Origin: Phaeobacter italicus
GTDB lineage: Bacteria; Pseudomonadota; Alphaproteobacteria; Rhodobacterales; Rhodobacteraceae
NCBI RefSeq assembly: GCF_001258055.1
Contig: NZ_CVRM01000007.1
Coordinates: 1 to 47,184 of the forward strand
Length of the DNA stretch: 47,184 bases
Direction of reading: 5' to 3'
The notes under the pieces are model-generated. The model saw only the letters and a program-made list of their open reading frames with translations, did not search any database and was not told the origin of the DNA. The translations under genes were made by a program, and so were the position numbers. Shown one piece after another: positions 14,366 to 40,175 of this stretch (its first letter is position 1; every line of letters begins with the position of its first letter).

Positions 14366-14753
14366 TATCCGAAACGCCCCAGATCTGCTGTTGAACGTGC
14401 TGCGCCAGTTTTCCGATCTGTTGCGCAGCGAGGCGGAACTGGCGAAATCCGAGCTGAAGGAGAAAGCGTCGAACGCCCGCGACGGTGCAATCGCGCTGGT
14501 TGCCGCGGTCATCGTGGCATTGGTCGCCCTGCATGTTCTCGCGGCGGCATTGGTTGCTTGGATCGCAACACTGGGCATAGGTCCCGGCCTTGCTGCCCTG
14601 ATTGTCGGAGGGGCACTGCTGGTCGTGTGTCTTGGCCTTCTGTTGTTTGCCAAGTCACGGCTCAGCAGCGAAGCCCTTACGCCGACACGAACCATCGAAA
14701 ATGCCAAACGCGATGCCGCACGCATCAAGGAGGCTGCACATGTCCGATACTAA
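14352..14753 (+). CDS. Holin-superfamily III / YqjE-like membrane protein (DUF1469-type)
   Basis: 133 residues from ATG 14352, with AGGGACA just upstream; the frame upstream of this merely shadows the previous gene. An N-terminal amphipathic helix (LLNVLRQFSDLLRSEAELAKSE) is followed by two hydrophobic helices (about 45-72 and 77-100), the usual plan of proteins annotated as phage holin family/DUF1469, including E. coli YqjE. There are no phage genes around, so a holin role is not suggested. It overlaps the gene before by 14 bp and the gene after by 14 bp, so all three are probably translationally coupled. Confidence 0.8.
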   Translation: MTRPDIRNAPDLLLNVLRQFSDLLRSEAELAKSELKEKASNARDGAIALVAAVIVALVALHVLAAALVAWIATLGIGPGLAALIVGGALLVVCLGLLLFAKSRLSSEALTPTRTIENAKRDAARIKEAAHVRY

Positions 14754-23478: not shown

Positions 23479-23480
23479 AT

Positions 23481-23495
23481 GTTCTATATATGTTC
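23481..23495. promoter_or_regulatory. Perfect LexA (SOS) box, GTTC-N7-GTTC
   Basis: GTTCTATATATGTTC, read on the plus strand, equals the alphaproteobacterial LexA consensus direct repeat GTTC-N7-GTTC with an AT-only spacer. It ends 3 bp upstream of the radical SAM start codon (minus strand). LexA binding here would block transcription of the radical SAM-UdgX operon until DNA damage. Confidence 0.85.
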
Positions 23496-23546
23496 ACGCC
23501 AACGGGCGGGCAACTCAATTAGAACAAACCGGGATCAGAACCTGCT

Positions 23547-24890
23547 CTAACCTGCGATCTTCCCCCACAACCCTGTCCGCCTACAGGCCCAGAATGCGCC
23601 CGCGACGGCGCTGAAATTGGCCAGCACGGCAGCCGCAAGGATGCCGGAGTATCCCACCATCCAGACCCCGATCCAGGCGACTGGCACGTAAACTGCAAAG
23701 ATCCGGAACAGACTAAGCCCCATTGACCACACGGCCTTGGACCTCGCATTCATCGCTGCATTGGCAGTCACCAGAATGCCATAGCCCAGAAAGCTCCAGC
23801 TCACGATTTCAAGATAGCGTGCGGTGTAACCCGCCGCCTCGCTGTCTGATGCGATAAAGCCCGCAATCGGGTCAGCAAACAGGGTGAGCAGAGCGGCCAC
23901 CAGCACACCGTAGGCTGCGCAAAACATCCAACTCTGTCGCACCGCCTCACGCGCGCGATCTTCGCGCTCCGCTCCCCAGTTTTGGCCAACGACCGGTCCG
24001 ATCCCCGCCGAAAGCGCAAGCAGCGGCACGATCGAGACGGACTGAACCCGCTGCGCAGCGCCAAGACCCGCCACAACCGTATCCCCAAGCATCGCCGCCG
24101 CAGCGGTCACCAGTGCCATGCCTGCAGGGTTGATCGCATTGGAAAAGGCCGCGGGCAGTCCGACCCGGATGACCTCTCGTACCGATTTGGCCAGATCACA
24201 GAACAAGTCTTCGGGCCACCAGAGCACACCTTTCTTGACTGCGTAGATATAGGCCCCGACAAGGGTAACTGACCGGGCAATCGCAGTCGCCTGCGCGGCG
24301 CCTGCCGTCGACATTTCGGGGATGGGGCCCAAGCCATAGATCAGAACCGGGTCCAACATGATATTCAGCGCCGCAGCGATGGACATCACGATGGCAGAGG
24401 TTGCACCGTCCCCATGGGCACGAAAGACCGAGTTCAAAAGGGCAGTTCCAACCAGAAACGGAAAGGACAGCGCCCAGAACGGAACGTAGGATTTGGCCTC
24501 GGCCAGGACATCGTCACTCGCCCCCATCAGGCCAAAAATCCATCCCGCACCGAACGCAAACAACACCGCGATGACCATCGCCAGCGCAACACCCAGAAGG
24601 ATTGCATGCACTGACAGGCGGTTGGTCTCCGCCTCACTGTCATCGCGCCCGATGCTCTGGGAAATCGCGGCGTTCGCACCAGCGGACAGGCCGATCGACA
24701 AAGACGTCACTGCGGTGGTGATCGGGTAAATATAGCCGACCGCGGCCAATGGTGCCTCGCCCAGCTGGCCCAGGAAATATGCGTCGGCCAATCCAACGCT
24801 CAGCACTCCGAGGATACCCAGCGACATCGGGGCCGACACTGCTGCCAATGCACGCCATACCGGCCCTTGCCTGAGATCTTTGGATGCCAA
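23547..24890 (-). CDS. MATE family efflux transporter
   Basis: About 447 residues and 12 hydrophobic segments, with MATE sequence features (SAPMSLGILGVLSVGLADAY near the start, NWGAEREDRA in the second half, paired repeats of six helices). I choose TTG 24890, reading LASKDLRQGPVWRAL, because GGAGAAGG lies 7 nt upstream of it on the minus strand. The longer frames to 24941 or 24959 add an Arg/Lys-rich stretch (RLRRKRRRRR-like) without a ribosome site. Exports drugs or other organic cations using Na+ or H+; the substrate is unknown. The radical SAM gene lies 68 bp downstream with its own LexA box. Possible DinF-like link to SOS is only positional. Confidence 0.87.
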   Translation of the reverse strand: MASKDLRQGPVWRALAAVSAPMSLGILGVLSVGLADAYFLGQLGEAPLAAVGYIYPITTAVTSLSIGLSAGANAAISQSIGRDDSEAETNRLSVHAILLGVALAMVIAVLFAFGAGWIFGLMGASDDVLAEAKSYVPFWALSFPFLVGTALLNSVFRAHGDGATSAIVMSIAAALNIMLDPVLIYGLGPIPEMSTAGAAQATAIARSVTLVGAYIYAVKKGVLWWPEDLFCDLAKSVREVIRVGLPAAFSNAINPAGMALVTAAAAMLGDTVVAGLGAAQRVQSVSIVPLLALSAGIGPVVGQNWGAEREDRAREAVRQSWMFCAAYGVLVAALLTLFADPIAGFIASDSEAAGYTARYLEIVSWSFLGYGILVTANAAMNARSKAVWSMGLSLFRIFAVYVPVAWIGVWMVGYSGILAAAVLANFSAVAGAFWACRRTGLWGKIAG

Positions 24891-25056
24891 ACGCCTTCTC
24901 CTTTTCCTGCGCAGGCGCAGCCCTGCCGAGAGCGACGCCATAGAGAGCAGAACGCCCAAGGCACGGATTGGTTCCCCAACATTGCTGACTGGTGCTGCTT
25001 GCCTCTGTCGCTCGCATCTGTGGCTTGCCCACGTGGCAGGCGGCCTTACTTAAATC

Positions 25057-25071
25057 GAACAACGAAAGAAT
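25057..25071. promoter_or_regulatory. Near-consensus LexA box upstream of the exonuclease-ligase operon
   Basis: GAACAACGAAAGAAT is the reverse-complement form GAAC-N7-GAAC of the LexA direct repeat with one mismatch in the last base. It lies 9 bp before the GTG start of the exonuclease gene. Weak on its own, more suggestive beside the perfect box at 23481. Confidence 0.35.
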
Positions 25072-25080
25072 GAGACCCCC

Positions 25081-26100
25081 GTGCCCAGCCTGCCTGTCCG
25101 CTCTCCTCAGGAATTGCTCCATCCCCGGCCCGCCGGCCTTTACTGCCCGGCGGGAGATTTCTACATCGACCCGGTTCAACCAGTTGCGCGAGCCCTGATA
25201 ACGCATGGCCACGCCGATCATGCGCGGGCCGGTCATGGCACCGTCTGGGCCAGCCGACAGACCCTCGACATCATGGCGATCCGCTACGGGGAAGATTTTT
25301 GCCAAACCCGCATACCGGTCGAAGACCGCGTGGATATCGCAGAGGTTCGGGCGACATTTACGCCGGCCGGACATGTGCTGGGGTCAATGCAAATCACGGT
25401 GGACGACGGCAACACAGCCATCACTGTTTCAGGCGACTACGCACGGGTCGACAACCCGGCCTGCGCTGCATTTGCGCTTGCGCCCTGCGATGTCTTTGTC
25501 ACCGAAGCAACCTTTGGCCTGCCCGTCTTCAATCACCCCAGTCCCCAATCAGAGGTGGAAAAGCTCCTGCGTTCGGTAGCTGCTCAACCAGATCGCTGCC
25601 ATCTCGTGGGGGCCTATGCGTTGGGAAAGGCGCAGCGTGTCATTGCCCTGCTACGGCAAGCGGGCTGGGATCGACCGATCTACATACATGGCGCCTTGCA
25701 GCGGTTGTGTGATTACCACATCGAACAGGGCATCGACCTGGGAGAGCTGCGCCCTGCAACAGTCAAACAAGGCAAGGACGCCTTTAAAGGGCAGATCATC
25801 CTTGGCCCCCCATCGGCCTTTGCAGCGACTTGGGCGCAGCGGTTTCCAGACCCGGTGATCTGCTTTGCCAGCGGTTGGATGCAGGTTCGGGCACGGGCAA
25901 GGCAACGCGGTGTTGAGCTGCCGCTGATCCTGAGCGACCATGTCGATTGGCCCGACCTGACCCGCACCATTCAAGACCTCTCTCCCCAAGAGGTTTGGGT
26001 GACACACGGACGCGAAGATGCGCTGGTACGCTGGTGCGAGCTGAACCAGATCAAGGCACGGCCCTTGCGTTTGGTCGGCTACGAAGAGGAGGCCGATTGA
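25081..26100 (+). CDS. Ligase-associated DNA exonuclease, metallo-beta-lactamase fold (TIGR04122-type)
   Basis: 339 residues from GTG 25081; no strong ribosome site is visible and the start fits family length. The N-terminal motif GLYCPAGDFYIDPVQPVARA leads into the zinc-binding HGHADHARAGH (His42, His44, Asp46, His47). Further family features are a second conserved stretch SGDYARV and VTEATFGLP. These beta-CASP-like nucleases process DNA ends and are encoded with the ATP-dependent ligase that follows. Coding sequences overlap by one base at TGATG, so the two are translated together. The Lhr-type helicase and calcineurin-like phosphoesterase, often part of the same four-gene set, are not here. 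Confidence 0.88.
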   Translation: MPSLPVRSPQELLHPRPAGLYCPAGDFYIDPVQPVARALITHGHADHARAGHGTVWASRQTLDIMAIRYGEDFCQTRIPVEDRVDIAEVRATFTPAGHVLGSMQITVDDGNTAITVSGDYARVDNPACAAFALAPCDVFVTEATFGLPVFNHPSPQSEVEKLLRSVAAQPDRCHLVGAYALGKAQRVIALLRQAGWDRPIYIHGALQRLCDYHIEQGIDLGELRPATVKQGKDAFKGQIILGPPSAFAATWAQRFPDPVICFASGWMQVRARARQRGVELPLILSDHVDWPDLTRTIQDLSPQEVWVTHGREDALVRWCELNQIKARPLRLVGYEEEAD

Positions 26101-27656
26101 TGCAGGAGTTTGCAGAGCTGCTCGAAAAACTGGCCTTCACCCCGTCGCGCAATGGCAAGATCGCCCATCTGAAACAGGCCTTCAAAACACTGCCCGACCC
26201 GGATCGCGGTCTGGCTCTTGCCGCGCTGACCGGGGATTTGGCTCTGCGCAATGTCACCCCGTCCCTGCTGCGCGGGCTTGTCGCAGACGAAACTGACCCG
26301 GAACTGTTTCGCCTTTCCTATGATTTCGTGGGGGATCTGGCGGAAACCGTGGCGTTGATCTGGCCGCACAGCACAGAACCCGAAGATCATTCGCTTAGCG
26401 AGGCAGTAGAGGAGCTGGGCAAAACCGCCAAGGCAGAATTGCCCGCACTTATCATGAGGCGGCTTTCGTCCATGACGCCAACGCAGCGCTACGCTTACCT
26501 GAAGCTTGCCACAGGCGGGTTGCGCGTGGGCGTGTCAGCTCGGCTCGCCCGGACGGCCTTGGCTCAGTTCGGCTCGGTCCCGGTCGAGGAGATCGAGGAG
26601 TTGTGGCATGGCCTTTCTGCCCCGTACCTTCCGCTTTTCCAATGGCTTGAGGGCGGGGATAAACCCGTCAACCTGGCAGCGGCCCCGTTCCGTCCGGTGA
26701 TGCTGTCTACACCCACGGATCTGGACGATCTGTCAGATCATCCCCCAGTGCAATTCGTGGCGGAATGGAAATGGGATGGCATCCGGGTTCAGGCAACAAA
26801 TGAAGGCGGCACGCGGCGGCTGTATTCCCGAACGGGCGAAGATATTTCCAACGCCTTTCCAGATGTTGTTGATGCGCTGAATTTCGAAGGCACGCTTGAC
26901 GGCGAATTGCTCATCAAACGCGGTGACACGGTGGCCCCCTTTGGCGATCTGCAAAAACGCTTGGGTCGCAAGCGGGTAGGCAAAGCAATGTTGGACAGCC
27001 ACCCAGCTGCACTGCGCGCATATGATCTGCTGCTTTGGGACGGCCGTGACATGCGCAGCCAACCGTTTGACGCGAGGCGCGCGGCCCTTGGCGACTGCAT
27101 CGCAGCGCTGAATGATCCCCGCATCGACCTGTCTGCGCTGTTGTCTTTCTCCACCTGGGACGATCTGGCCCGCCTGCGGGAAAACCCGCCCGAAAGCGTC
27201 ATCGAGGGTGTCATGATCAAACGGCGAGACAGCGCCTATATGGCGGGACGCAAGCGGGGGAATTGGTTCAAATGGAAGCGTGACCCAATGCTGGTGGACG
27301 CGGTCCTCCTTTACGCGCAACGCGGACACGGCAAGCGATCGGGGTATTATTCCGATTTCACATTCGGTGTCTGGCAAGAGGGTCAGCTGGTCCCCGTGGG
27401 CAAGGCCTATTTCGGCTTTACCGACGCGGAACTGAAGGAGCTGGATCGATTTGTCCGCAACAACACCACTGACCGTTTCGGCCCCGTGCGCGCGGTGAAA
27501 CCTGAACTGGTTGTTGAAGTCGCCTTCGAAGGGCTGAACGCATCCAGCCGACATAAAAGCGGTGTCGCCATGCGATTTCCACGCATCAACCGGATCAGAA
27601 CAGACAAACCCGCAGCAGAGGCGGGAACTTTGGAAGAGTTGAAAGCATTTCTATAG
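26100..27656 (+). CDS. ATP-dependent DNA ligase (cisplatin-response ligase type)
   Basis: 518 residues from ATG 26100, overlapping the exonuclease stop by one base; the upstream in-frame extension from 25947 lies inside that gene. An N-terminal helical DNA-binding domain (about 1-190) is followed by the adenylation domain with motif I EWKWDGIR, catalytic Lys224. The nucleotidyl transferase motifs TLDGELL (motif III region) and EGVMIKRRDSAY (motif IV) follow, as does NWFKWKRDP (motif V). The OB-fold at the C-terminus contains VEVAFEGLN. It belongs to the family of bacterial ATP-dependent ligases that resist crosslink damage and is a repair ligase, not the replicative NAD-dependent one. Acts with the exonuclease in DNA-end processing. 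Confidence 0.92.
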   Translation: MQEFAELLEKLAFTPSRNGKIAHLKQAFKTLPDPDRGLALAALTGDLALRNVTPSLLRGLVADETDPELFRLSYDFVGDLAETVALIWPHSTEPEDHSLSEAVEELGKTAKAELPALIMRRLSSMTPTQRYAYLKLATGGLRVGVSARLARTALAQFGSVPVEEIEELWHGLSAPYLPLFQWLEGGDKPVNLAAAPFRPVMLSTPTDLDDLSDHPPVQFVAEWKWDGIRVQATNEGGTRRLYSRTGEDISNAFPDVVDALNFEGTLDGELLIKRGDTVAPFGDLQKRLGRKRVGKAMLDSHPAALRAYDLLLWDGRDMRSQPFDARRAALGDCIAALNDPRIDLSALLSFSTWDDLARLRENPPESVIEGVMIKRRDSAYMAGRKRGNWFKWKRDPMLVDAVLLYAQRGHGKRSGYYSDFTFGVWQEGQLVPVGKAYFGFTDAELKELDRFVRNNTTDRFGPVRAVKPELVVEVAFEGLNASSRHKSGVAMRFPRINRIRTDKPAAEAGTLEELKAFL

Positions 27657-28975: not shown

Positions 28976-29758
28976 CTAGGCCGCAGCGACCCCGGGACGT
29001 TTGCCAAGGATGATCATGCTCAGCAGGTCGTCGTCTGTCACATCGTCGATGTCGACGGTTCCAACCAGCTGGCCGTTTTTCATCACAGAGGCGCGGTCAC
29101 ACAGTTCCATAACCGCGTTGACATCGTGGTCGATCAGAAAGATCCCGATCCCCTGCGCCTTGAGCTGTTGGATCAACTCCGCCACCATTTGCGTCTCATG
29201 CGGGCCGAGCGCGGCTGTGGGCTCATCCATGATCAGGATCTTGGCGTTGAAATAAACCGCCCGCGCAATCGCCACCGACTGACGCTGACCACCCGACAAG
29301 GCAGAGACCGGCTCGGAGAACTTTTGAAAGTTCGGGTTGAGCCGATGCATGATCTTGCGGCACTCGGCCTCCATCGCGGAGTCGTCCACCAGCCCGAAGG
29401 GGGTGGTCAGCTCTCGTCCCAGAAACAGGTTCGAGGCTGCATCGAGGTTATCCGCCAAGGCAAGTGTTTGGTAGATCGTCTCGATGTTGTGGGCGCGCGC
29501 GTCGCGGGGGTTTGTGATTTCAACCTTGTTGCCGTTCACCCGGATCTCGCCGGTATCCATCTGATAGGCGCCCGACAGGATCTTGATAAGGGTGGATTTC
29601 CCGGCGCCGTTATGGCCCAGCAATCCGACGACCTCGCCGGGATAGAGATCGACACTGACGTGATCCACCGCCTTGATGCCTCCAAAGGAAATGGAGATGT
29701 CCTTCATTTCGACCAGCGGAGTGGCGCCAGAGGCGCGCAGTTCTTTTGCGTTGCTCAT
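28976..29758 (-). CDS. Sugar ABC transporter ATP-binding protein (single ATPase domain)
   Basis: 260 residues. Walker A GHNGAGKS, ABC signature LSGGQRQ, Walker B ILIMDEPTAALG and switch His in LIDHDV are all intact. Monosaccharide ATPases such as XylG or RbsA usually carry two such domains (about 500 residues). This one has only one, as in FrcA-type transporters, so it would act as a homodimer. Its start codon overlaps the permease stop (TAATG), so it is translated with it. Energises uptake of the sugar delivered by the XylF-like protein. Third of the operon xylF, xylH, ATPase read on the minus strand. Confidence 0.88.
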   Translation of the reverse strand: MSNAKELRASGATPLVEMKDISISFGGIKAVDHVSVDLYPGEVVGLLGHNGAGKSTLIKILSGAYQMDTGEIRVNGNKVEITNPRDARAHNIETIYQTLALADNLDAASNLFLGRELTTPFGLVDDSAMEAECRKIMHRLNPNFQKFSEPVSALSGGQRQSVAIARAVYFNAKILIMDEPTAALGPHETQMVAELIQQLKAQGIGIFLIDHDVNAVMELCDRASVMKNGQLVGTVDIDDVTDDDLLSMIILGKRPGVAAA

Positions 29759-31056
29759 TACCGTGCCCCCAGACGTTTGCGATAGACGATGTCGATCCAG
29801 ACCGCTGCAACCAACACGGTCCCAACCACGATGTTCTGGAACGGCGCGTCCACCCCGACCATGGCCATGCCCGACTGAAGGCTCTGCATGATGAGCGCGC
29901 CCAGAATGGCCCCATAGATTGTGCCAAAACCACCTGCCAATGCGGTGCCACCAATGACCGCAGCCGCAATGACGCGCAGTTCATCGAGTGTCCCGATATC
30001 ATTGGAGTGATTGGCCAGACGAGCAGAGGCCACAACAGCGGACAACGCACAGAGGAACCCCATGAGGGCAAAGATCTTGACTGTCAGCATGCGGGTGTTG
30101 ATGCCGGACAGTTCCGCTGCATCGGGATTGCCGCCAGTGGCAAAGATATAGCGGCCAAAACGGGTGCGACGCGCAACGATGGTCATGACCACTGCCGTGG
30201 CGATCAGGATCAGAACAGAAACGGGCAGACCATAGCCGACAACCAGACCCTCGGGCATGGTTTCCCCCTGGGCTTCCAGCATGCGCTTCAGGCGGCGAGC
30301 GGGGATCTGATAGGCGTTCAGGATCGCGACAAAGCCAAGGATGGACCCTGCGATAATCATCGCCATGACAGCCTCAGCCCAGGCGGGCTTCACCGGGAAC
30401 CCATGCCCCTGCTTTGCCCGGCGGCTGTTCCAGAGCGCCGCAAGTGCAAGAACCGTCGCGACAATTCCAACAGCCCAGCTCAATGTGGTGCCAAGCGTGC
30501 CGGAGGTGCCCCCGAACACCAGAAAATTCGCGTCCAGTGGGCCAATTGTCTGACCATCGGTCAGGTACCAGGCGACGTTGCGCCAGACCAGAAAACCACC
30601 GAGGGTCACGATAAAGGCAGGGATTGTCAGAAATCCGACCATCCACCCCTGAAAGGCACCAATCGCCGTCCCAACTGCGAGACCAACGATGATGGTCAGG
30701 ATCCAGGTCAGCGGGTGATTGAGCCCCATGCCAAGCATGTCGGGCAGGATCTCTGTCTGAACCACTGCCATCACTGCCGAACAGGTCGCCAGCAGGGCAC
30801 CAACGCTCAGGTCGATGTTGCGTGTCACGATCACAAACACCATTCCCGTTGCCATGATGGCAACCGACACGGTTTGAATGGTCAGGTTAAAGATGTTGCG
30901 CGGCGTCAGAAAACGCCCGTCCGTCAGGATGTTGAATCCAATACAGAGGATGACAAAGGCACCGATCATACCCAATAGCCGCATGTCCAGTTCCAGCTGC
31001 TGGAACAGGCCACGTTTGCTTTGTGCGGGGATCGGCTGAGACGTGGTTTCGGTCAT
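29758..31056 (-). CDS. xylH: Sugar ABC transporter permease, XylH-like
   Basis: 432 residues, longer than RbsC (about 320) and of the length of XylH-type permeases. About ten or more hydrophobic segments, with typical motifs of BPD_transp_2 sugar permeases (NIFNLTIQTVSVAIMATGMV, DLSVGALLA, ELSGINTR, VIGGTALAGGFGTIYGAILG). Start ATG 31056 lacks a strong ribosome site and depends on the upstream hairpin region. Partner of XylF and the single-domain ATPase; xylose or a similar sugar is suggested by XylF likeness, but the ligand is not proven. Stop and start of the next gene overlap by one base. Confidence 0.88.
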   Translation of the reverse strand: MTETTSQPIPAQSKRGLFQQLELDMRLLGMIGAFVILCIGFNILTDGRFLTPRNIFNLTIQTVSVAIMATGMVFVIVTRNIDLSVGALLATCSAVMAVVQTEILPDMLGMGLNHPLTWILTIIVGLAVGTAIGAFQGWMVGFLTIPAFIVTLGGFLVWRNVAWYLTDGQTIGPLDANFLVFGGTSGTLGTTLSWAVGIVATVLALAALWNSRRAKQGHGFPVKPAWAEAVMAMIIAGSILGFVAILNAYQIPARRLKRMLEAQGETMPEGLVVGYGLPVSVLILIATAVVMTIVARRTRFGRYIFATGGNPDAAELSGINTRMLTVKIFALMGFLCALSAVVASARLANHSNDIGTLDELRVIAAAVIGGTALAGGFGTIYGAILGALIMQSLQSGMAMVGVDAPFQNIVVGTVLVAAVWIDIVYRKRLGAR

Positions 31057-31175: not shown

Positions 31176-32201
31176 TCAGTTACAGGGTGCCGGACCGTTG
31201 GTCACACCTTGGCAAAGCGCGTCCTTGGTGATCCAGCCTGCATCCACAACCACAGTCAGGTTGTCCGCGGTCACCGGGATCGGCTCCAGGAAACGGGCTG
31301 TCAGCTCGGTGCCAGAGGGAGACGTCCAGGCCGCGCCGCCGTCCACTGCGGACATGTCAGCACCTTCCGCCATTTGAACGGCAATTTCCGCAGCAGCCTT
31401 GCCGAGGTCACGGGCATCTTTCCAAACCGATACGGTCTGAGTGCCTTTTGCAACGCGGTTCAATGCGGCGTGGTCACCATCCTGGCCGGATACGGGGATG
31501 CCTTCCATGCCCTGTGCAGTCAGCGCTGCAACAACACCACCGGCAGTACCATCATTGGACGCGATGACCGCATCGACGGCATTGTCATTGGCGGTCAGGA
31601 TCTGCTCCATGTTGCGCTGAGCATTCGCAGGCAGCCAGCCATCGGTATAGGCTTCGCCAACGATCTTGATGTCACCACTGTCAACGGCGGCCTGGATCAC
31701 CTCCTGCTGACCGCCGCGCAGGAAGTCGGCGTTCGGATCAGTGGGCGAGCCCTTGATCATGACGTAGTTGCCACTGGGCTGGGCCTCAAGAACGGCGCGG
31801 GCCTGCATGCGACCAACTTCGATGTTGTCAAATGTCAGGTAGAACGCACGACCATCTTCGATCAGGCGGTCATAGGCGACAACCGGGATACCCTCGTCTG
31901 CAGCAGCCTCAACTGCCGGACCAATGGCCTGCGCGTCCTGCGCGAGGATGATCAGAGCGTCGACGCCCTGTGCGATCAGGCTTTCGACATCAGACAGCTG
32001 TTTGGCGGACGACGATTGCGCATCAGCCGAAACATAGGTCGCCCCCTTGGCGTCCAAAGCGGCCTTGATGGCGGCTTCGTCGGTCTTCCAGCGCTCTTCC
32101 TGAAAATTGGACCAGCTCACGCCTACGGTGATGCCGTCCGCAAATGCCATGCTGGCTGTTGCCGCAAAGGCGATGGCGGAAATTCCACTCAAAAGTTTCA
32201 T
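31176..32201 (-). CDS. xylF: Periplasmic sugar-binding protein, XylF-like
   Basis: 341 residues. Signal peptide (about 1-21, ending SMAFA). The mature chain aligns well with E. coli Xyl[62 protein letters not shown]-like ASNDGTAGG and SGQDGD. XylF binds D-xylose, so xylose or a related pentose is the likely ligand. Start ATG 32201 with GGAGGAAC 5-6 nt upstream. First gene of the transporter operon, with a divergent ROK regulator whose start is 181 bp away. Palindrome 32279-32313 lies between the two. Confidence 0.9.
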
Positions 32202-32278: not shown

Positions 32279-32313
32279 ACATTATTTTTTTTGAAACTCA
32301 AATTAAATAATGT
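32279..32313. promoter_or_regulatory. 35-bp interrupted palindrome, candidate ROK operator for xylF and ROK gene
   Basis: Centred on 32296. ACATTATTT (32279-32287) mirrors AAATAATGT (32305-32313), and an inner TTTGA (32290-32294) mirrors TCAAA (32298-32302). Of 17 symmetric pairs, 14 match. Its core is nearly the same as a palindrome before galM (37545-37569), with the right half CT[C/G]AAATTAAAT in the same register. The AT-rich form resembles XylR/ROK operators. Confidence 0.75.
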
Positions 32314-32382
32314 ATCCTGATTGAAGGGAGCAGGTTACAGCGCATCGAAATTCGCGTAGGTAGCTGAAAAGGGAGGAAAACC

Positions 32383-33597
32383 GTGGCTAAGTCAGTCAAG
32401 CTGTCCCATTCGGACGAACTGCGTGAAAGCAGCCGCCAACAGGTGTTTGATGCCATTCGCGAGGCGGGGCAGATCGCTCGAATCGACATTGCGCAGGTAA
32501 CACGGATCAGCCCGGCAACGGTGACAGCCATTACCGCAGACCTGATCGCAGCAGGGCTGATCGAAGAGGTAAGCCCGGACATTTCACGCGGAGCCAAACG
32601 CGGACGCCCCCGTGTCGCACTGAAAATCCGCGGCGATGCCCACACGATTGCCGGTATGAAACTGTCCCATCACGCGATTACGACGCTGATCACCGACTTT
32701 GAAGGGGCCGAGCTGGTCTGCCACGAAATCCCCCTTCCCGGCGGCCAGCTTGACCCGGATGCCCTGTGCGAAAAGATTGTCACCGCACTCGATGAAAGCT
32801 GCGCCCAGGGCGGCCTTGAGCGTCAACAGATCTCAGGCCTTGCGATCGGAATGGCTGGGGTGATGGATGCGGATCGCAATTTCGTCTACTGGTCCTCCTC
32901 GCTCAACGTGCGCAACATTGATTTCGGAAGTTACCTCGCCCGTTATCTTTCGATCCCTGTATTCATCGACAATGATGCAAACCTGGTCGCCAAGGCAGAG
33001 TTGTTGTTTGGCGAGGGGGACAAGCGCAGCAACTTCGTGGTTGTCACGGTAGAGCATGGCGTTGGTATGGGGATTGTCATCGACAATCAGATCTACCGAG
33101 GCGCGCGTGGCTGCGGCGCAGAATTTGGCCATACCAAGGTCCAACTGGAAGGAGCCCTGTGTCAGTGCGGACAGCGCGGCTGTCTTGAGGCCTATGTCGG
33201 CGACTACGCCCTTTTGCGCGAAGCCAATGTGACCAGCGGGGTAGAGCGCCACAAGGATCTTGCCTCTCTTTATGCCGCGCGTGAGGCTGGCGACATCATG
33301 GCCCAATCGACGCTTGACCGGGCCGGGCGCATGTTTGCGATGGGGCTGGCCAATGTGGTGAACATCTTTGACCCGCAGATGATCCTGCTTGCCGGTGCTC
33401 AACTGGCCTTTGGCTACCTGTCTTCAGACAAGGTCGTTCACGAAATGCGGCGATCTGTGCTGCAGGTAGACGGCCCCCTGCCAGAGGTCCGCGTCCATGG
33501 TTGGGGCAACAAGATGTGGGCCAAGGGCGCAGCCGCTCACGCAATCGAAGAAATTTCTGCCCTGCGCATCCGAGAGGTGTCTGGTCATGCGGTTTAA
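32383..33597 (+). CDS. ROK family transcriptional regulator (XylR/NagC-like)
   Basis: 404 residues from GTG 32383, with GGGAGGAAAACC just before it. An N-terminal helix-turn-helix (about 18-65, IDIAQVTRISPATVTAITAD) is followed by a ROK kinase-like domain. The ROK zinc-binding motif CQCGQRGC is at about 260, and GARGCGAEFGH precedes it. A regulatory member rather than a sugar kinase because of the HTH. Divergent from xylF, so it probably represses the transporter and its own gene through the intervening palindrome. Its coding region overlaps the CRTAC1-type gene that follows by 11 bp, tying that gene to sugar control. Confidence 0.9.
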   Translation: MAKSVKLSHSDELRESSRQQVFDAIREAGQIARIDIAQVTRISPATVTAITADLIAAGLIEEVSPDISRGAKRGRPRVALKIRGDAHTIAGMKLSHHAITTLITDFEGAELVCHEIPLPGGQLDPDALCEKIVTALDESCAQGGLERQQISGLAIGMAGVMDADRNFVYWSSSLNVRNIDFGSYLARYLSIPVFIDNDANLVAKAELLFGEGDKRSNFVVVTVEHGVGMGIVIDNQIYRGARGCGAEFGHTKVQLEGALCQCGQRGCLEAYVGDYALLREANVTSGVERHKDLASLYAAREAGDIMAQSTLDRAGRMFAMGLANVVNIFDPQMILLAGAQLAFGYLSSDKVVHEMRRSVLQVDGPLPEVRVHGWGNKMWAKGAAAHAIEEISALRIREVSGHAV

Positions 33598-35125
33598 TGC
33601 GACAACCTGGCTTTCGACTTGGGCTATCTCCGCCTCTTCGGTATTTGCCCAGGCCGCGCCCCAATTCACAGCACGTCCAGCGCCCGAACACATCTATGAC
33701 GGCGGATGGGAGCATTTTGTCGGCGGGGGACTCGCATCGCTTGACTGCAACGGGGATGCCCTTCCTGATCTGGTCGCAGCAGGGGGCAGCAACTCTGCGC
33801 AACTGTTCGTCAACACAACGACCGGCCCTGGCGCCCCTCTTCAGTTTGAAAGCCAAACACCGGATACGCTGTCCCAGGTCGGACTGACCGGCGTATATCC
33901 GCTGGATATTGACGGCGATAGCCAACTGGATCTTGTCCTGTTGCGCGTCGGCCCGGATCAAATCCTGCGAGGTCTGGGGAATTGCCAGTTTGAACCGATG
34001 ACAAACATCGGTTTTGACAGCGTCGACCATTGGACAACGGCGTTTTCCGCAACTTGGGAACCCGGCCAGTTTTTGCCAACATTGGCCTTTGGGACATATG
34101 TCGACAGAAACGACCCTATGGGCCCGTTTGAAAGCTGCGATGCCACGCTGCTCTACCGCCCTGACGGAGACCGCTATCGACCAGCCGAACAACTGACCCC
34201 CGGTTTTTGCGCCCTGTCCATGTTGTTCACCAACTGGCAGCGATCGGCCTCTGGCCGGGCAGACCTGAGGGTGAGCAACGACAGGCACTATTACGTCCGT
34301 GGCGGGCAGGAACAGATGTGGGAGATGACGACGCCGCCGCGTCTCTACCAGCCAGAAGACGGTTGGGCTTCTTACCACCTGTGGGGCATGGGCATTGCCT
34401 CACGCGATATGAACGGAGACGGCTTTTCCGACGTTTACCTGACATCGATGGGCGATCAGAAGTTTCAGCTGTTTGACCCGGCGGTCGGTGGCCCCGCCTA
34501 TCGGGACGTCACCTACGACTACGGAACCACGGCCCATCGTCCTGCATCAGGCGGGGATGGCCGCCCGTCAACCGGGTGGCACGCGGATTTTGGCGATGTG
34601 AACAACGATGGGCGGGACGACATTTTTGTATCCAAGGGCAACGTCGAACAGATGCCGGATGCCGCAATGCGCGACCCCAATACCCTGTTGATGCAATCCG
34701 CAGACGGCCGGTTCACAGAGATCGCGGAAACCGCAGGAATTGCAACAATGCATCGCTCCCGCGGGGCCGTGCTGAGGGATCTGAATGGCGATGGACGATT
34801 GGATCTCGCGGTGGTGAACCGACGCGCTCCACTTGAGATCTTTGAAAACACAACAGCCGAGACAGGCAATTGGCTTGCGGTCGGACTGTCAGCCCAAGGC
34901 CCCAACACCCAAGCCATCGGCGCCTTTGTGGAGGTCGACGACGGCACCCGCCTGCACACCCGAGAAGTGACAGTTGGCGGTGGTCACGCAGGTGGCTCTG
35001 CAGGGGATCTCCATTTCGGCGTTGGTCTGGCGGATACGCTAAAGGTCAGGGTTATCTGGCCCAGTGGCAAAGCAACCAACTGGCAAAGCGTTGCGCCCAA
35101 TCAGCGGATTGCGATAACGCCCTGA
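33587..35125 (+). CDS. Secreted CRTAC1-type protein (FG-GAP/VCBS repeats, C-terminal ASPIC/UnbV domain)
   Basis: 512 residues from ATG 33587, with GAGAGG 9 nt upstream; it overlaps the ROK gene by 11 bp. Signal peptide (about 1-25, ending SSVFAQA). Repeated Asp/Asn-Gly-Asp motifs mark beta-propeller blades of FG-GAP/VCBS type that bind calcium: DCNGDALPDLV, DIDGDSQLDLV, DMNGDGFSDVY, DVNNDGRDDIF, DLNGDGRLDLA. A C-terminal ASPIC/UnbV domain begins near NWLAVGLSAQGPN and ends VRVIWPSGK. No enzymatic motif is seen. Faces the convergent cytochrome c peroxidase gene, whose stop lies 11 bp past this stop. Such proteins often lie beside di-heme peroxidases, so I infer a periplasmic partnership. Confidence 0.85.
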   Translation: MRFNATTWLSTWAISASSVFAQAAPQFTARPAPEHIYDGGWEHFVGGGLASLDCNGDALPDLVAAGGSNSAQLFVNTTTGPGAPLQFESQTPDTLSQVGLTGVYPLDIDGDSQLDLVLLRVGPDQILRGLGNCQFEPMTNIGFDSVDHWTTAFSATWEPGQFLPTLAFGTYVDRNDPMGPFESCDATLLYRPDGDRYRPAEQLTPGFCALSMLFTNWQRSASGRADLRVSNDRHYYVRGGQEQMWEMTTPPRLYQPEDGWASYHLWGMGIASRDMNGDGFSDVYLTSMGDQKFQLFDPAVGGPAYRDVTYDYGTTAHRPASGGDGRPSTGWHADFGDVNNDGRDDIFVSKGNVEQMPDAAMRDPNTLLMQSADGRFTEIAETAGIATMHRSRGAVLRDLNGDGRLDLAVVNRRAPLEIFENTTAETGNWLAVGLSAQGPNTQAIGAFVEVDDGTRLHTREVTVGGGHAGGSAGDLHFGVGLADTLKVRVIWPSGKATNWQSVAPNQRIAITP

Positions 35126-35136
35126 TCCTGTTCGGG

Positions 35137-36462
35137 TCAGGGTTCTACCGGCAGGCCAGAGGGCACCTGATCCGGCACTCCTAGACGCCCTTTCGCTGCC
35201 TCTTCATCGGTCAACGCATGAAGAAACGCGACAAGCGCCGCAACCTCATCATCCCGCAGCGAAATCGGGGTAAGGTCATTTGCATCTGCAATTGCGGCCA
35301 CCTCAGCCGGGTCATCCATCACGCGCCAATCAGACGCCCCTTCCAAAACCGGCAATATGGCCTGCGTCCGGTCGTAGGCACGCAACCCTGCAACCGGATC
35401 GAGATGATGGCGCACCACCCCCTCTAACGTGGCATATGCTCCGCTATGCCCATAAGGCGCCGTCAGCGACACATTGCGCAAACTCGGTGTGCGAAACCGA
35501 TAGGCGTCCTCTTCTACCCCAGTCACCCGGAGCCGACCCACATCCCTTGCATGGCTCTCAAACCGTGCCGCCTTGCCCGGCCCCAATTGCGGGATCGCAA
35601 TGGCATGAAATCCATTGTCCGTCTGCAACCAGCCTGAATGACAACTGCTGCACATCGCCTTACCGTAAAACAGGCCCTGCCCCATCGCCGCCTCTGCAGA
35701 TAGGGTTGCCTCACCGGCCATCGCACGGTCAAAGGGGCTGTCCATCGCCCGAAATTCAAACCGGATGAAGGCCGCGAGCACATTGCCGATATCGGTAAAG
35801 CGGATTGGCGCCCCCTCCCCCAGGACCGTATCGAAACGTTGGCGATACTCCGGGATTGCCGCCACCCGACCCGCGATCAGATCCCACGCGCCACCCTCGT
35901 GGCTCAGCTGGCCCAGACGCACAGCTCGCGAAATCTCGTTCTCTCCGTAGTGCCCGGCCATTTCATCCGCCGACAGTACCGGGAACATGGCCTGCGCAGA
36001 CAGGGCCGAGTCAAAGCCCGCAACCATATCGCCTTCCAGCGGGGTGCGGATGCCTGCGCCATAGTTCGGATCCGCTTCCAATCGCCCGTCATGGAACATC
36101 ACATCCATGCCAGCTGCCCCAAGGTTCCACAGCGCCGGCGCATTTCGCGGAATGCGCTGTTCGGGCATGTTGTCAGGGTCGGCCTGCCTTTCCGGGCCAA
36201 GGCCCTGCCCCCCATCTCCAAGGGACAATGAAACCCCATCACCCGTCCCAAAGCGCGGATGATGACAGCTTGCACAGCTGACAGTCCGGTTGCCGGAAAG
36301 AATGGGGTCATAAAACAACAGCTGACCCAATTCCGCGACGTCCGGATCAACCGGTGAAAAAAACGGCGCAGGCCCAAGGTCCGGCACATGTGATCCGGCA
36401 AGGGCGGCATTGCTCAGAACGACGGCAACAAATGCAAAGCACGGGATTTGCCCGATCATCAT
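35137..36462 (-). CDS. Di-heme cytochrome c peroxidase (MauG/MbnH-like family)
   Basis: 441 residues with a signal peptide (about 1-23, ending NAALAG). Two c-type heme sites: CASCH (Cys63, Cys66, His67) and CSSCH (Cys271, Cys274, His275). The late stretch RTPSLRNVSLTAPYGHSGAYATL is shared by bacterial di-heme peroxidases and the MauG/MbnH group. Periplasmic electron transfer or oxidative modification of a protein partner is the expected role; whether it removes peroxide or oxidises a partner cannot be told. Starts within the galM stop (ATGA overlap), so it is cotranscribed with galM. Convergent with the CRTAC1-type gene. Confidence 0.88.
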   Translation of the reverse strand: MMIGQIPCFAFVAVVLSNAALAGSHVPDLGPAPFFSPVDPDVAELGQLLFYDPILSGNRTVSCASCHHPRFGTGDGVSLSLGDGGQGLGPERQADPDNMPEQRIPRNAPALWNLGAAGMDVMFHDGRLEADPNYGAGIRTPLEGDMVAGFDSALSAQAMFPVLSADEMAGHYGENEISRAVRLGQLSHEGGAWDLIAGRVAAIPEYRQRFDTVLGEGAPIRFTDIGNVLAAFIRFEFRAMDSPFDRAMAGEATLSAEAAMGQGLFYGKAMCSSCHSGWLQTDNGFHAIAIPQLGPGKAARFESHARDVGRLRVTGVEEDAYRFRTPSLRNVSLTAPYGHSGAYATLEGVVRHHLDPVAGLRAYDRTQAILPVLEGASDWRVMDDPAEVAAIADANDLTPISLRDDEVAALVAFLHALTDEEAAKGRLGVPDQVPSGLPVEP

Positions 36463-37505
36463 GCTACCCCCGCCTTTCCGGTCTCAAAAACCAGTTCCAG
36501 TCGCTGTTGGTACGGGCTCTCTGGCGTTACCATGATCGAAGGGAAATGCGGATGATTGGGCGCATCAGGATAACCTTGCGGTTCAATGCAAAGGGCCGAA
36601 AACGGCCTGAGCTTCTGTCCGCCCCTCCCTGTTACGGCGCTTTCAAGGGAGCCCGCGGTATAGATTTGTGCGCCCGGCTGGTCAGATCGCAGGGTCAGCC
36701 CGATGTCCGACGGCGCTCTCAGCTGGGCGACATCTCTCAGACCCTGTTCTCTGTCCGCAAAAATCACATGTATGTCGCTCCCCCGCCGTTCAGGATCGAG
36801 CCTGGCAAAGCTGAGGCCGCGGCGAAAGTCGTAGCGGGTGCCTTCCACATCACAGATATGCCCCGTTGGCACACCATCGGCATCCAACTGCAGATATTGC
36901 CGCGCGTCCGATCGCAAGACGTGCTCCCAGATCCCAGCACCGTGGCCCAAGGTGTAATAATTGTGCTGAGCAAGATTGATGGGAGTCGGCCTGTCGACCG
37001 TCACGGTCATATCATAGGTCACGGTTCGCCCCTGTAGCGCAATGGTGACAACAAATTCGGCCTCGCCCGGATAGCCGTTTGCCCCATGGAGAGACACATG
37101 CCGCAGACGGGCAGACCGCGCCGTCACCTGATCCAGTTCCCAGAACACCCGGCCAAGCCCCTGAGCGCCGCCATGCAACTGGTTCTGTCCCTCATTTGGC
37201 TCCAGATGCACGACCTGCCCGCCCAGTTTCATCTGCGCGGCACCAACACGATTGGCCACCCGTCCAACAATGGCACCAAGATAGAAGGGATCGCCAAGGT
37301 AGGACTGCATGTCCTGATAGCCCAAAATCATCGGCACCCACTCCGCCCCCGACCACAGGTCGCAATGGGCCGTCACCGCGCCATAGTTCAGAACGCGGAC
37401 GCGCAGGTCATCTGTCTGCAAGTCCACCCAGTTCAACAGATCCGGCGCATTTTCAGGTAGATGCGCATGCAGAGGTACAGGCATCTGGGTTTCCTGGTCG
37501 GACAT
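36459..37505 (-). CDS. galM: Aldose 1-epimerase (galactose mutarotase)
   Basis: 348 residues from ATG 37505, with GGAG 10 nt upstream; ATG 37514 is too close to it. GalM elements: LGAIVGRVANRVGAAQ, the HNYYTLG segment carrying the catalytic His, and CIEPQGYPDAPNHP with the catalytic Glu. The enzyme interconverts alpha and beta anomers of aldoses, including xylose and glucose, feeding sugar metabolism. No signal peptide, so cytoplasmic. Overlaps the peroxidase gene downstream by four bases. A palindrome 40-64 bp upstream matches the xylF/ROK palindrome, so the ROK regulator probably controls it. Confidence 0.88.
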   Translation of the reverse strand: MSDQETQMPVPLHAHLPENAPDLLNWVDLQTDDLRVRVLNYGAVTAHCDLWSGAEWVPMILGYQDMQSYLGDPFYLGAIVGRVANRVGAAQMKLGGQVVHLEPNEGQNQLHGGAQGLGRVFWELDQVTARSARLRHVSLHGANGYPGEAEFVVTIALQGRTVTYDMTVTVDRPTPINLAQHNYYTLGHGAGIWEHVLRSDARQYLQLDADGVPTGHICDVEGTRYDFRRGLSFARLDPERRGSDIHVIFADREQGLRDVAQLRAPSDIGLTLRSDQPGAQIYTAGSLESAVTGRGGQKLRPFSALCIEPQGYPDAPNHPHFPSIMVTPESPYQQRLELVFETGKAGVA

Positions 37506-37544
37506 ACCGGGCATTTCTCCACATCGTCGCAGGCAAACTGCGCC

Positions 37545-37569
37545 ATTTATTTTACTACTGAAATTAAAT
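37545..37569. promoter_or_regulatory. 25-bp palindrome before galM matching the ROK candidate operator
   Basis: Centred on 37557. ATTTA (37545-37549) mirrors TAAAT (37565-37569), and TTT (37551-37553) mirrors AAA (37561-37563). From the centre outward the right half reads CTGAAATTAAAT, against CTCAAATTAAAT at 32297-32308. The left halves also agree in most positions. It lies 40 bp before the galM start, at a typical promoter or operator position. Confidence 0.7.
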
Positions 37570-37886
37570 CAGCCGATCCGCTTCCTGTCAATCGCCGAGC
37601 TCGCAGCCCTGGCCCTCGGATCAGGGCTGATTCCAAGCGGACAGCCAGTTCGCAGGCCTGAATTCCCGGCTGCAATCGGAAGTTGCCGTGCCAAAAATCA
37701 CAACGCGCGGAGGTGCGAATTTTGCCTCGATTTTCCACCCCAGCCGCAGCAACGCACTGATTTGGCCCAAATCTCGCCACGAATTTTAATCAAATCTTAG
37801 GAAGCGGAAGAGGTCACAGCCTAAACGGCGACAGGATCCGATCAGTCCCCGCACTGATGCCGCCGAATAGAATGATGGGGTGCAAA
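37570..37886. other. Noncoding gap between galM and the sugar transferase gene
   Basis: No gene is visible in these 317 bases. An 8-bp perfect inverted repeat CAGCCCTG (37604-37611) / CAGGGCTG (37622-37629) has a 10-nt loop and no T tract. The right part (37770-37810) is AT-rich (GAATTTTAATCAAATC) and may hold the promoter for the sugar transferase gene. The galM promoter with its palindrome lies left of this block. Confidence 0.5.
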
Positions 37887-38573
37887 ATGAGCAAATTCGC
37901 CGATCCAGTGCAGCTGGCGCCAGTCCAGACAGCCGCCATGCCGACCCGGCAGCGGGCTCGTAGTTTCTATGGAATCTTTGGAAAGCGACTGGTCGACGTC
38001 ATGCTGGCGCTTGCGCTTCTGCCCATGATTGCCCCAGTGATAATCGGTCTGTGGCTGCTAAGCCGGCGGGACGGTGGGCCCGGTTTTTTCGGGCACACCA
38101 GGATCGGGCGAAATGGCCGAGCCTTCACATGCTGGAAAATCCGCACGATGGTTCACGGTGCAGAAGAGATTTTGGCCGACCATCTGAAAACTGACGCAAA
38201 GGCTGCACAGGAATGGGCCAGAGACCGCAAATTGACGAACGATCCCCGCATCACACGGTTTGGCGACTTTCTGCGCCGCAGCAGCCTTGATGAATTGCCC
38301 CAGATCTGGAACGTCCTGCGCGGAGAAATGAGCTTTGTCGGGCCACGGCCAATCGTGCGTTGCGAGTTGAGCCGATATGGTGCCTCTGCTGCTGCATACC
38401 TGAACCAACGGCCCGGGATCACCGGCCTTTGGCAGGTGTCCGGCCGCAATGATGTCAGCTACCAGGAACGTGTATCCCTTGATGTGGACTATCTGCACAA
38501 ACGCACCTTTGGTCTTGATCTGAAACTGATCATGATGACCGGTCGTTGTGTCTTGGCCCGCACCGGACGCTGA
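37887..38573 (+). CDS. Undecaprenyl-phosphate sugar transferase, ExoY-like
   Basis: 228 residues from ATG 37887 (GGGG 6 nt upstream; ATGs at 37872 and 37875 are alternatives). A single membrane helix (about 38-62) precedes the bacterial sugar transferase domain: KRLVDVMLALAL, GRAFTCWKIRTMV, FLRRSSLDELPQIWNVLRGE, MSFVGPRP and GITGLWQVSGR. Enzymes of this class start exopolysaccharide repeat units by transferring a sugar phosphate to undecaprenyl phosphate. The flippase gene follows 111 bp on in the same direction. Other glycosyltransferases for the polymer are not in this window. Confidence 0.9.
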   Translation: MSKFADPVQLAPVQTAAMPTRQRARSFYGIFGKRLVDVMLALALLPMIAPVIIGLWLLSRRDGGPGFFGHTRIGRNGRAFTCWKIRTMVHGAEEILADHLKTDAKAAQEWARDRKLTNDPRITRFGDFLRRSSLDELPQIWNVLRGEMSFVGPRPIVRCELSRYGASAAAYLNQRPGITGLWQVSGRNDVSYQERVSLDVDYLHKRTFGLDLKLIMMTGRCVLARTGR

Positions 38574-38684
38574 TCTTGGCGCTAAAGCGGCGTTAAGGGT
38601 TGTGTGATAGGCTCCCTGACACAGGATAAGGGCAAAGCCCTGGGCAAACCGGTTGCCCGCTGCACAGAAACAGGATCCGCGACG

Positions 38685-40175
38685 ATGCAGAAAGGCGAAA
38701 CCACAGCTGAGCTACATACCCATGTATCGCAGGGCCGTGGACGGCTGGCCCTTGCAGGGGTGTTCTGGTCATTTGTGAACATCATGGTCAGCAATGGGCT
38801 GACGGTCGTGGTTTTCCTTGTGACCTCCATGCTGCTGCAACCTGCGGATTTCGGCGCGGTCGCGCTGGCGACCTCTATCGTCGTCTGGGTGATGACACTG
38901 GTGCCCCTGCCCCTTGGCGATGCGATCATCCAGCGAAAAGACCTGCGCCCGCAACATCTTGATAGCGCGTTCTGGTTGACCATGACGATTGCAGTGGGGT
39001 TCTTTTTCGCGCTGGTTGCCATTGCACCCTTCGCGGCTGAATGGACGAACCTTCAAATCCTCGAACTTATCCTGCCCGTCCTTGCCTTGCGTATCTTGTT
39101 CGTTTCCCTTGGAAACATCCCCGCAGCGCTGATCAATCGCAAGATGGCTTTCAAACAGGTCGCGTTGCGCACAACGCTGGGGAACGGTTTGGGCGCAATC
39201 AGCTGTCTTGTGCTGGTTCTGCAGGGCTATGCGATCTGGGCGCTGATCTGGGCGCAGGTTGTCACCGCTCTTGTTGGGTGCTGCGTTGCATATTGGTCGG
39301 CGGGTTGGCGACCGGGCTTCGCGATTTCACGCAGGGCCATCACGGATTTGCGCGGCTTTACGCTCTACACGATGGGCGGTCGGTTGATCGAGCCTACCAA
39401 GATCAATCAGATTCTTCTTGGCATTCTTGCAGGGCCTGCTGTCTTGGGGATTTTCTTTTTTGCCCGCAGGATCTGCGAGATCCTTCAGGAAGTGACAATC
39501 GGAACGCTCCTTCCGGTTACGCGGGTCCTGTTTGCCAGCATGCAAACAGAGGAAGAGCGACGCCGCGACGCCTTTTTGCTAAGCAGCTTTGCCGCCGCGA
39601 GCGCAGCACTGCCGCTATTTGTGGGTTTCATCATGGTTGCCCCAACCGCCATCCCCTATGTCTTTGGCGCCAAATGGATCGCTGCCATCTACCCGCTTCA
39701 GTGCTTTGCTTTGCTGAGCCTGATGATGAGCATTGGGGTCATGCAGGCGTCCTTGGTGCGGTTTTCCGGCCATGCCGGGTGGTGGTTCTGGTTTGAACTT
39801 TCCGTCAGCCTGTCCGGATTCATCGCCATTCTCTATTTTGCAAATGAGGGGCTGAACAGCATCATGACGGCTCTTGTCATTCTCTCTGCCTGCCTGTGGC
39901 CTGTCGCGACGGCAAAAACGCTGCGCGTGTTGAACATGCCTTTGCGTACCTATGTGTTTGAGGCGCTGCGGCCCGCACTGATTTCCGCGTCAATGATGGC
40001 GATTTCCCTCTTCGCTCTGCGAGAAATGGGGCCGCCGATGTATGGCTACACGCTGCTGCTCGCACAGTTTGCTGTCGCAGTCCCGACCTATGTCGGCATG
40101 ATGTTTCTTGTGGGCGGGGATCGGCTGGATCTGATCCGAGAGGTCGTCCGCCGCCGCATCGCCACCACAGCATGA
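38685..40175 (+). CDS. Polysaccharide flippase (Wzx/MOP superfamily)
   Basis: About 496 residues with 12-14 hydrophobic segments. The N-terminal GRGRLALAGVFWSFVNIMVSN and the pattern LQPADFGAVALA followed by LGDAIIQRKDL are typical of lipopolysaccharide/exopolysaccharide flippases. The KINQILLGILAGPAVLG stretch comes mid-protein. Start ATG 38685 has AGGA about 9 nt upstream; a GTG at 38604 is an alternative. It would move lipid-linked repeat units made after the ExoY-like transferase across the inner membrane. The pair may be part of a larger exopolysaccharide set elsewhere; the yjb operon in this window could serve the same product but this is not shown. Confidence 0.85.
   Translation: MQKGETTAELHTHVSQGRGRLALAGVFWSFVNIMVSNGLTVVVFLVTSMLLQPADFGAVALATSIVVWVMTLVPLPLGDAIIQRKDLRPQHLDSAFWLTMTIAVGFFFALVAIAPFAAEWTNLQILELILPVLALRILFVSLGNIPAALINRKMAFKQVALRTTLGNGLGAISCLVLVLQGYAIWALIWAQVVTALVGCCVAYWSAGWRPGFAISRRAITDLRGFTLYTMGGRLIEPTKINQILLGILAGPAVLGIFFFARRICEILQEVTIGTLLPVTRVLFASMQTEEERRRDAFLLSSFAAASAALPLFVGFIMVAPTAIPYVFGAKWIAAIYPLQCFALLSLMMSIGVMQASLVRFSGHAGWWFWFELSVSLSGFIAILYFANEGLNSIMTALVILSACLWPVATAKTLRVLNMPLRTYVFEALRPALISASMMAISLFALREMGPPMYGYTLLLAQFAVAVPTYVGMMFLVGGDRLDLIREVVRRRIATTA

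Follow-up and report, generated by a model that had tools for sequence, protein, structure and literature searches.

Gene order and two palindromes in the window

The window analysed here (47,184 bases of Phaeobacter italicus DNA) is contig C7 in full from a 4.05-Mb genome (4,049,567 bases), and it carries a sugar-uptake locus with two similar palindromes that we predict to be operators A and B. The order is xylG-xylH-xylF on the minus strand, operator A, a ROK-family regulator gene followed by a CRTAC1-like gene on the plus strand, a MauG-like gene and galM on the minus strand, and operator B. The xylG-like gene (28976-29758, minus strand) encodes a sugar ATP-binding cassette (ABC) transporter ATPase of 260 amino acids with a single ABC domain (PF00005), and its place in the gene order is kept in relatives. 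In NCBIfam, sugar ABC ATPases head the best 25 of its 191 matches, all 25 under their own cut-offs. The xylH-like permease gene (29758-31056, minus strand; PF02653) has homologues of 51-93% identity that adjoin the ROK gene in relatives. The periplasmic sugar-binding protein XylF (xylF, 31176-32201, minus strand) passes the TIGR02634 equivalog model with 475 bits against a cut-off of 389.55, as expected of a XylFGH xylose ABC system.

The ROK-family transcriptional regulator (32383-33597, plus strand) has 404 amino acids and a GTG start. For the CRTAC1-like gene (33587-35125, plus strand), which encodes FG-GAP repeats and an ASPIC/UnbV domain (PF13517, PF07593), we chose the ATG at 33587 as start; the longest open reading frame begins at 33497, and the Pfam matches were made on this 33497-35125 frame. 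With the chosen start, the ROK and CRTAC1 frames overlap by 11 nucleotides. Facing them are a gene for a MauG-like protein of the di-haem cytochrome c peroxidase family with two CxxCH motifs (35137-36462, minus strand; CCP_MauG, PF03150) and a galM-type aldose 1-epimerase gene (36459-37514, minus strand; PF01263, 193.8 bits), the two frames sharing 4 nucleotides. These overlaps make galM-MauG and ROK-CRTAC1 consistent with two operons.

Operator A, between the divergent xylF and ROK genes, has a 25-bp core at 32284-32308 (no strand assigned) with the sequence ATTTTTTTTGAAACTCAAATTAAAT, which can be read as ATTTTTTTTGA-AAC-TCAAATTAAAT with 9 of 11 arm positions complementary. By reading, the palindrome extends over 32280-32312 as CATT...AATG with 13 of 15 positions complementary. 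Operator B (37545-37569, likewise unstranded) lies upstream of galM-MauG and has the sequence ATTTATTTTACTACTGAAATTAAAT, read as ATTTATTTTAC-TAC-TGAAATTAAAT, in which 8 of 11 arm positions are complementary by reading. The two share a 9-7-9 register and 20 of 25 bases, and the right half reads CT[C/G]AAATTAAAT in both. A first, sequence-only reading of this DNA had described two palindromes at these places with this common register, core and right half, and it was accurate in each respect. When the pattern ATTTAATTT-N7-AAATTAAAT was searched with at most 3 mismatches in 18 positions, it occurred at exactly two places in all 4,049,567 bases, namely operators A and B, with 0 matches for a reversed control. 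In the window alone there were 2 matches, compared with 0 in 100 dinucleotide shuffles. This pattern was derived from the operators themselves, making the genome-wide count partly circular; a matrix built from other genomes provides the non-circular test.

Conservation of the paired sites in relatives

ROK homologues at E ≤1e-60 are present in 151 of 295 genomes of the family, the own genome included. We took neighbourhoods from the 40 genomes, besides the own one, with the best ROK homologues, which form a best-match set and not a random draw. A palindromic motif was trained, without any window sequence, on the regions between xylF and ROK in 40 other genomes, first in a seeded version and then unseeded from random starts. 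The learned motif reached 32.9 bits versus 11.5-12.6 in 8 shuffled sets, with the consensus ATTTAATTTGA-N3-TCAAATTAAAT. Applied to the window, this foreign matrix ranked operator A first (39.7 bits) and operator B second (32.3 bits) among all positions, the next position overlapping neither of them scoring 6.4 bits. xylF adjoins the ROK gene in 40 of 40 best-match neighbourhoods, and the common locus has xylGHF and ROK-CRTAC1 diverging from one site and facing a second arm, MauG-(galM)-(xylA)-xylB, that is read from another.

Two further sets extend the site upstream of ROK. Of 20 loci outside the training set with a more distant ROK protein (39-52% identical), 19 have a best match before ROK that scores above 200 shuffles. 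The other set comprises 80 loci from Ruegeria, Shimia, Tritonibacter, Pelagimonas, Sulfitobacter and others (the best 80 of 565), 11 of which duplicate training loci. Its 69 non-duplicate loci have a match upstream of ROK of at least 15 bits in 69 cases and at least 20 bits in 66, counted at a fixed threshold with no shuffles.

The second arm is recognisable in 36 of the 40 relatives' neighbourhoods (L057, L064, L065 and L075, with no recognisable arm, were left unscored for the second site), and its outermost, first gene is xylB in 30 of these 36. With leave-one-out matrices, 33 of 37 arms, that of the window among them, have an upstream match that outscores 100 shuffles, and 28 of the relatives' 30 arms that start with xylB carry a significant site. 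In the 80-locus set 68 loci could be scored upstream of the downstream xylB and 12 could not; 18 bits or more are reached by 62 of the 68 and, with duplicates removed, by 53 of 59. The comparative scan that the sequence-only reading had proposed thus returned conserved pairs upstream of xylF/ROK and of the facing operon. Since the same pair precedes the corresponding operons in many genera, the two palindromes are very probably two docking sites of one sugar-responsive switch protein. The pairing likewise supports the earlier suggestion, itself predictive, that one regulator governs the uptake, ROK-CRTAC1 and galM-MauG operons.

The site is also found with xyl genes that lie away from the locus. 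In genome G128, xylB, xylA and the MauG-like and CRTAC1 genes form a block at a distance of ~43 kb from ROK, with a site preceding xylB; in G137 xylB-xylA-MauG stands behind a site on another contig while CRTAC1 remains beside ROK; and in G146 xylA stands on another contig behind a site with 0 mismatches. These displaced sites argue that the site accompanies the xyl genes rather than the place.

In Ruegeria pomeroyi SZCCDBG043 (L211), the two xyl-locus sites are the sole two matches in 4.5 Mb. In the 40 ROK-bearing genomes (~172 Mb) there are 79 matches at ≤3 mismatches, a sum over the per-genome table with overlapping matches counted apart, and 52 of them lie inside the 40 xyl neighbourhoods (752 kb). 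We also note recurrent sites away from the xyl locus, at corresponding sequences of G210 (contig C2; L078 and L079), G311 and G315. The L079 site is located between a LacI-type gene and a sugar-binding-protein gene. A 25-bit match has the same kind of setting in L081 (G146:C99:17000-23500, site 3237), with a sugar-binding-protein gene like that of L079, and a 29-bit match in L088 (G228:C2:88500-95000, site 2973) lies ~120 bp before a glucokinase-like gene.

The ROK protein and its likely mode of action

The window ROK protein scores 166.5 bits with PF00480 (cut-off 22.9) and has an N-terminal winged helix-turn-helix at residues 20-63, where MarR_2 (24.6 bits, cut-off 27) and HTH_24 (20.1 bits, cut-off 21.9) both match just under their cut-offs. 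From residue 8 onward it aligns with ROK repressors of the PDB, with long alignments to Lmo0178, Mlc and NagC-like regulators. Residues H250, C260, C262 and C267 are invariant in 12 aligned ROK sequences, window included, and form the His/Cys cluster that we take to be the zinc-binding motif of Mlc/NagC-type regulators. The protein thus shares a long ROK alignment and this cluster with Mlc and NagC of E. coli and relatives, which are also its best NCBIfam models. Unlike an equivalog of either, it falls far below their cut-offs (Mlc, 183.5 of 530 bits; NagC, 177 of 650), and the two sites at ≤3 mismatches in its own genome do not make a global regulon. With the XylR chain in the PDB (4ija) it scores only 65 bits.

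Based on synteny and family membership, we regard it as highly likely that operators A and B serve a single regulator. The most probable candidate is the ROK protein, whose gene lies between them and whose binding is predicted. The distribution of matches supports this link. Of the 40 ROK-bearing genomes 34 have matches at ≤3 mismatches, versus 33 of 80 genomes drawn from the 144 that lack a close ROK homologue (Fisher p 5e-6), whereas the reversed control has the opposite, non-significant trend (5 of 40 ROK-bearing, 20 of 80 ROK-negative). This contrast backs the ROK link without amounting to proof, and synteny is the stronger argument.

Several observations weigh against a single ROK regulon with two conserved operators. 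Upstream of ROK, the distant locus L133 has no significant site (1 of 20), L137 (11.2 bits), L138 (17.1 bits) and L144 (25.4 bits, with a shuffled maximum of 24.0) pass weakly, and 17 Ruegeria loci have a weak operator A of 19-22 bits. Four of the 37 second arms have no significant site, namely L039 (narrowly), L048, L049 and L052; no gene beyond MauG was found in the arms of L049 and L052, where the region scored may not be a promoter. Six of the 59 non-duplicate xylB arms fall under 18 bits (Ruegeria L187, L193, L194, L197 and L199, plus L178). The 80-locus set is rich in near relatives (Ruegeria, Shimia) and its counts are not independent. The search at 3 mismatches yielded nothing in six of the 40 ROK-bearing genomes, and the motif is AT-rich, giving chance matches in AT-rich genomes. 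Lastly, these are draft assemblies, in which a gene on a separate contig, as in G137 and G146, is not in every case certain to have relocated.

Regarding the mode of action, a candidate ROK-CRTAC1 promoter, TTGAAA-N16-TATCCT (32291-32318, plus strand), has its -35 box inside operator A. The scanned stretch held 2 promoter-like sites versus 2.0 expected by chance, weak evidence alone, and the flank is slightly conserved. Operator A also holds TTGA boxes on both strands between the divergent genes. Direct reading before galM gives a candidate galM-MauG promoter (37563-37591, minus strand) with TTGACA at 37591-37586, N17, and TTTAAT at 37568-37563, the -10 box being inside operator B; the consensus promoter scan did not flag this TTGACA-N17-TTTAAT. 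A TTGAC 12-18 nucleotides before operator B is also present in L036-L047, L051 and L062. Of the 37 second arms, 17 have TTGAC shortly before the operator (counted by regular expression and including two loose cases, L070 and L071), 15 have it inside the operator and 5 have it in neither position. As each operator contains a candidate promoter hexamer, a ROK dimer could block RNA polymerase, and both operator positions suit a repressor that competes with the polymerase.

We propose that operator A belongs to the divergent promoter region of xylF and ROK and that operator B overlaps the likely galM-MauG promoter. In the absence of sugar, a ROK dimer would occupy both operators and exclude RNA polymerase. 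On arrival of an aldose, which may be xylose, glucose, both or a derivative, ROK would be freed, and its release would turn on uptake, the epimerase, CRTAC1 and the MauG-like enzyme together, with ROK itself autoregulated. The varying position of the operator relative to the likely promoter from lineage to lineage, seen in the TTGAC counts, would also suit activation or dual control by ROK at either site or at both. We consider this unlikely, since operators for steric repression usually overlap a -10 or a -35 box, as is seen in the window and in relatives, respectively, and the ROK-family xylose regulators characterised in Firmicutes are repressors.

If ROK is such a repressor, the sugar that frees it may be glucose and/or xylose. 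The sequence-only reading had named xylose in its proposed binding test, and XylF does match TIGR02634, a model that names its binding protein xylose-specific. In the accessible part of a study of R. pomeroyi, xylFGH is reported for glucose as well as xylose (PMC10130141), and xylose alone should accordingly not be assumed. The growth-screen entries for the SPO0863 mutant there are 92.1 for glucose and 96.6 for xylose, which we take as percent growth loss, and pooled transposon sequencing (TnSeq) did not recover the transporter for xylose. The genes concerned, SPO0861-0863 of R. pomeroyi DSS-3, have the gene order that we find, with two strong sites, in another strain of the species (L211), a correspondence drawn from gene order; the same part of that study mentions neither operators nor a ROK gene (PMC10130141).

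The sites could belong to one regulon and be bound by a regulator encoded elsewhere, either a second ROK protein of Mlc/NagC type or a LacI-type protein. Binding specificity is unreadable from synteny alone, similar sites lie near other sugar genes in some relatives (G210 and G146, LacI-type and sugar-binding-protein genes; G228, a glucokinase-like gene), and matches also occur in 33 of the 80 ROK-negative genomes, several of them AT-rich with similarly high control counts. Such a regulator would have to account for a site that stays upstream of ROK in 19 of 20 distant loci and, at 15 bits, in 69 of 69 non-duplicate loci. Upstream of the LacI-type gene of the xylAB locus described below, the conserved motif is another one, and nothing in the window matches it comparably. 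We judge control from elsewhere improbable. That the palindromes are AT-rich promoter elements or hairpins with a fortuitous likeness has next to no probability, for although both are AT-rich, lie in promoter regions and are overlapped by promoter-like hexamers, no third match exists in 4 Mb, and they are conserved at 32.9 bits versus ~12 in shuffles, paired across many genera and present before xyl genes away from the locus.

The predicted ROK regulon is a new, solid example of a familiar kind of control. In Firmicutes, as far as the available portion of the source goes, XylR is likewise a ROK regulator of xylose genes with sites upstream of uptake and catabolic genes and often of the regulator gene, and its published 25-bp group-1 motif is ACTTattAAAnnnnnTTTaaAAAgt (Gu et al. 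2010, PMC2873477). This motif differs from the roseobacter consensus, as does the roseobacter second arm, which carries a MauG-like gene facing a CRTAC1 gene. Among the literature matches listed, no title or abstract opening gives an account of a roseobacter ROK regulon, and the portions available of PMC5507952 and PMC4052901 do not mention one; RegPrecise, which lay outside this search, may hold a similar prediction. The result supplies an exact operator sequence for a sugar regulon common to many marine roseobacters.

xylAB, the galM promoter and the MauG-like/CRTAC1 pair

The sequence-only reading had extended the regulon to xylAB. This holds in relatives, where the site precedes the xylB of the second arm and the displaced xylBA or xylA of three genomes. 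It does not hold in the own genome, whose single xylA lies in a lacI-xylA-xylB cluster on contig C11 (L090, G000:C11:500000-519900). An operator-type site was sought near these xylAB genes and not found, so that the own genome lacks the arrangement expected of a xylose-responsive XylR regulon, with xylAB under the same operator. xylA stands apart from the locus, beside a LacI-type gene, in the own genome and in G075, G032, G257, G149, G187, G193 and G134. The 8 LacI-type upstream regions share a motif of their own, at 22.1 bits versus 10.1-11.5 in 6 shuffled sets. This palindromic motif, ATGATNNACGTNNATCAT, is present as two exact tandem copies before lacI-xylA-xylB in the own genome; elsewhere in that genome no place matches it with 1 mismatch and five do with 2. 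In the window it matches best within the galM coding sequence, at 12.3 bits, far from the 23.2-31.1 bits of the training set, and we rejected action of this motif in the window. The LacI-type gene is, like ROK, a sugar-type regulator adjoining xylose catabolic genes and differs by its own motif. With that motif before xylAB and unmatched in the window, control of the xylose genes seems divided between two regulators.

The nearest relative beyond the genus in the ROK homologue search, G193 (L037), preserves a probable record of how the second arm changed. Remnants of xylB and xylA lie between its site and galM (G193:C17:462000-481900, locus position ~14335-14790). The xylB pieces are the start region and a segment near residue 83; those of xylA are residues 52-119, 75% identical to the xylA of L038, and the C-terminus. 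We read these remnants as evidence of a decayed operon and stepwise loss. In the window galM directly follows operator B, and the genus-mate G075 has no xylA or xylB within 20 kb around the locus. Given the decayed genes between site and galM in G193, the window's galM promoter is probably the former xylB promoter. The ancestral second arm was probably xylB-xylA-galM-MauG or similar, and in the lineage of the window xylB and xylA would have been lost from it and galM would have taken over the promoter. The regulon is apparently splitting, with xylAB under another regulator's gene and galM keeping the old promoter.

The oddity of the regulon is the MauG-like/CRTAC1 pair inside it, which ties two proteins of obscure role, a di-haem enzyme and a propeller, to sugar uptake. 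The two genes face each other at window 33587-36462. In the 80-locus set CRTAC1 was detected in 79 loci and the MauG-like gene in 76; the latter is missing from L149 and L179, which end shortly after ROK, and from L157 and L184, which do not end there. The pair is displaced together with xylBA in G128 only. Two CxxCH motifs are present in 36 of 36 MauG-like sequences, window included. The MauG-like protein reaches 116.8 of 443.85 bits with the NCBIfam TTQ_mauG equivalog, well short of membership, and 266 of 340 bits with its nearest model, TIGR03981. Its structure model, built without haems, has a moderate mean predicted local distance difference test score (pLDDT) of 75.6, and that of CRTAC1 has a mean pLDDT of 87.4. 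The best fold match of CRTAC1 is murine CRTAC1 (9etn; template modelling score, TM, 0.75 by query length), and weaker, suggestive matches are other propellers including lectins and aldos-2-ulose dehydratase.

MauG and MbnH modify partner proteins. By analogy, the MauG-like enzyme might oxidatively modify the co-regulated CRTAC1 beta-propeller, and the modified propeller might bind or oxidise aldoses before their capture by XylF, the two forming a periplasmic maturation pair. We put this forward tentatively, as a proposal with only a small chance of being right. If true, it would make the MauG-like/CRTAC1 pair a core part of sugar use in roseobacters.

Two other gene groups share the contig with the sugar regulon. 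Exopolysaccharide genes (a YjbH-type protein, a sugar transferase and a flippase) occupy window 16338-18461 and 37857-40175. Window 22243-27656 may be a DNA repair module: it encodes an ATP-dependent DNA ligase, a radical SAM protein and a protein whose weak match to the metallo-beta-lactamase fold narrowly misses the Pfam cut-off.

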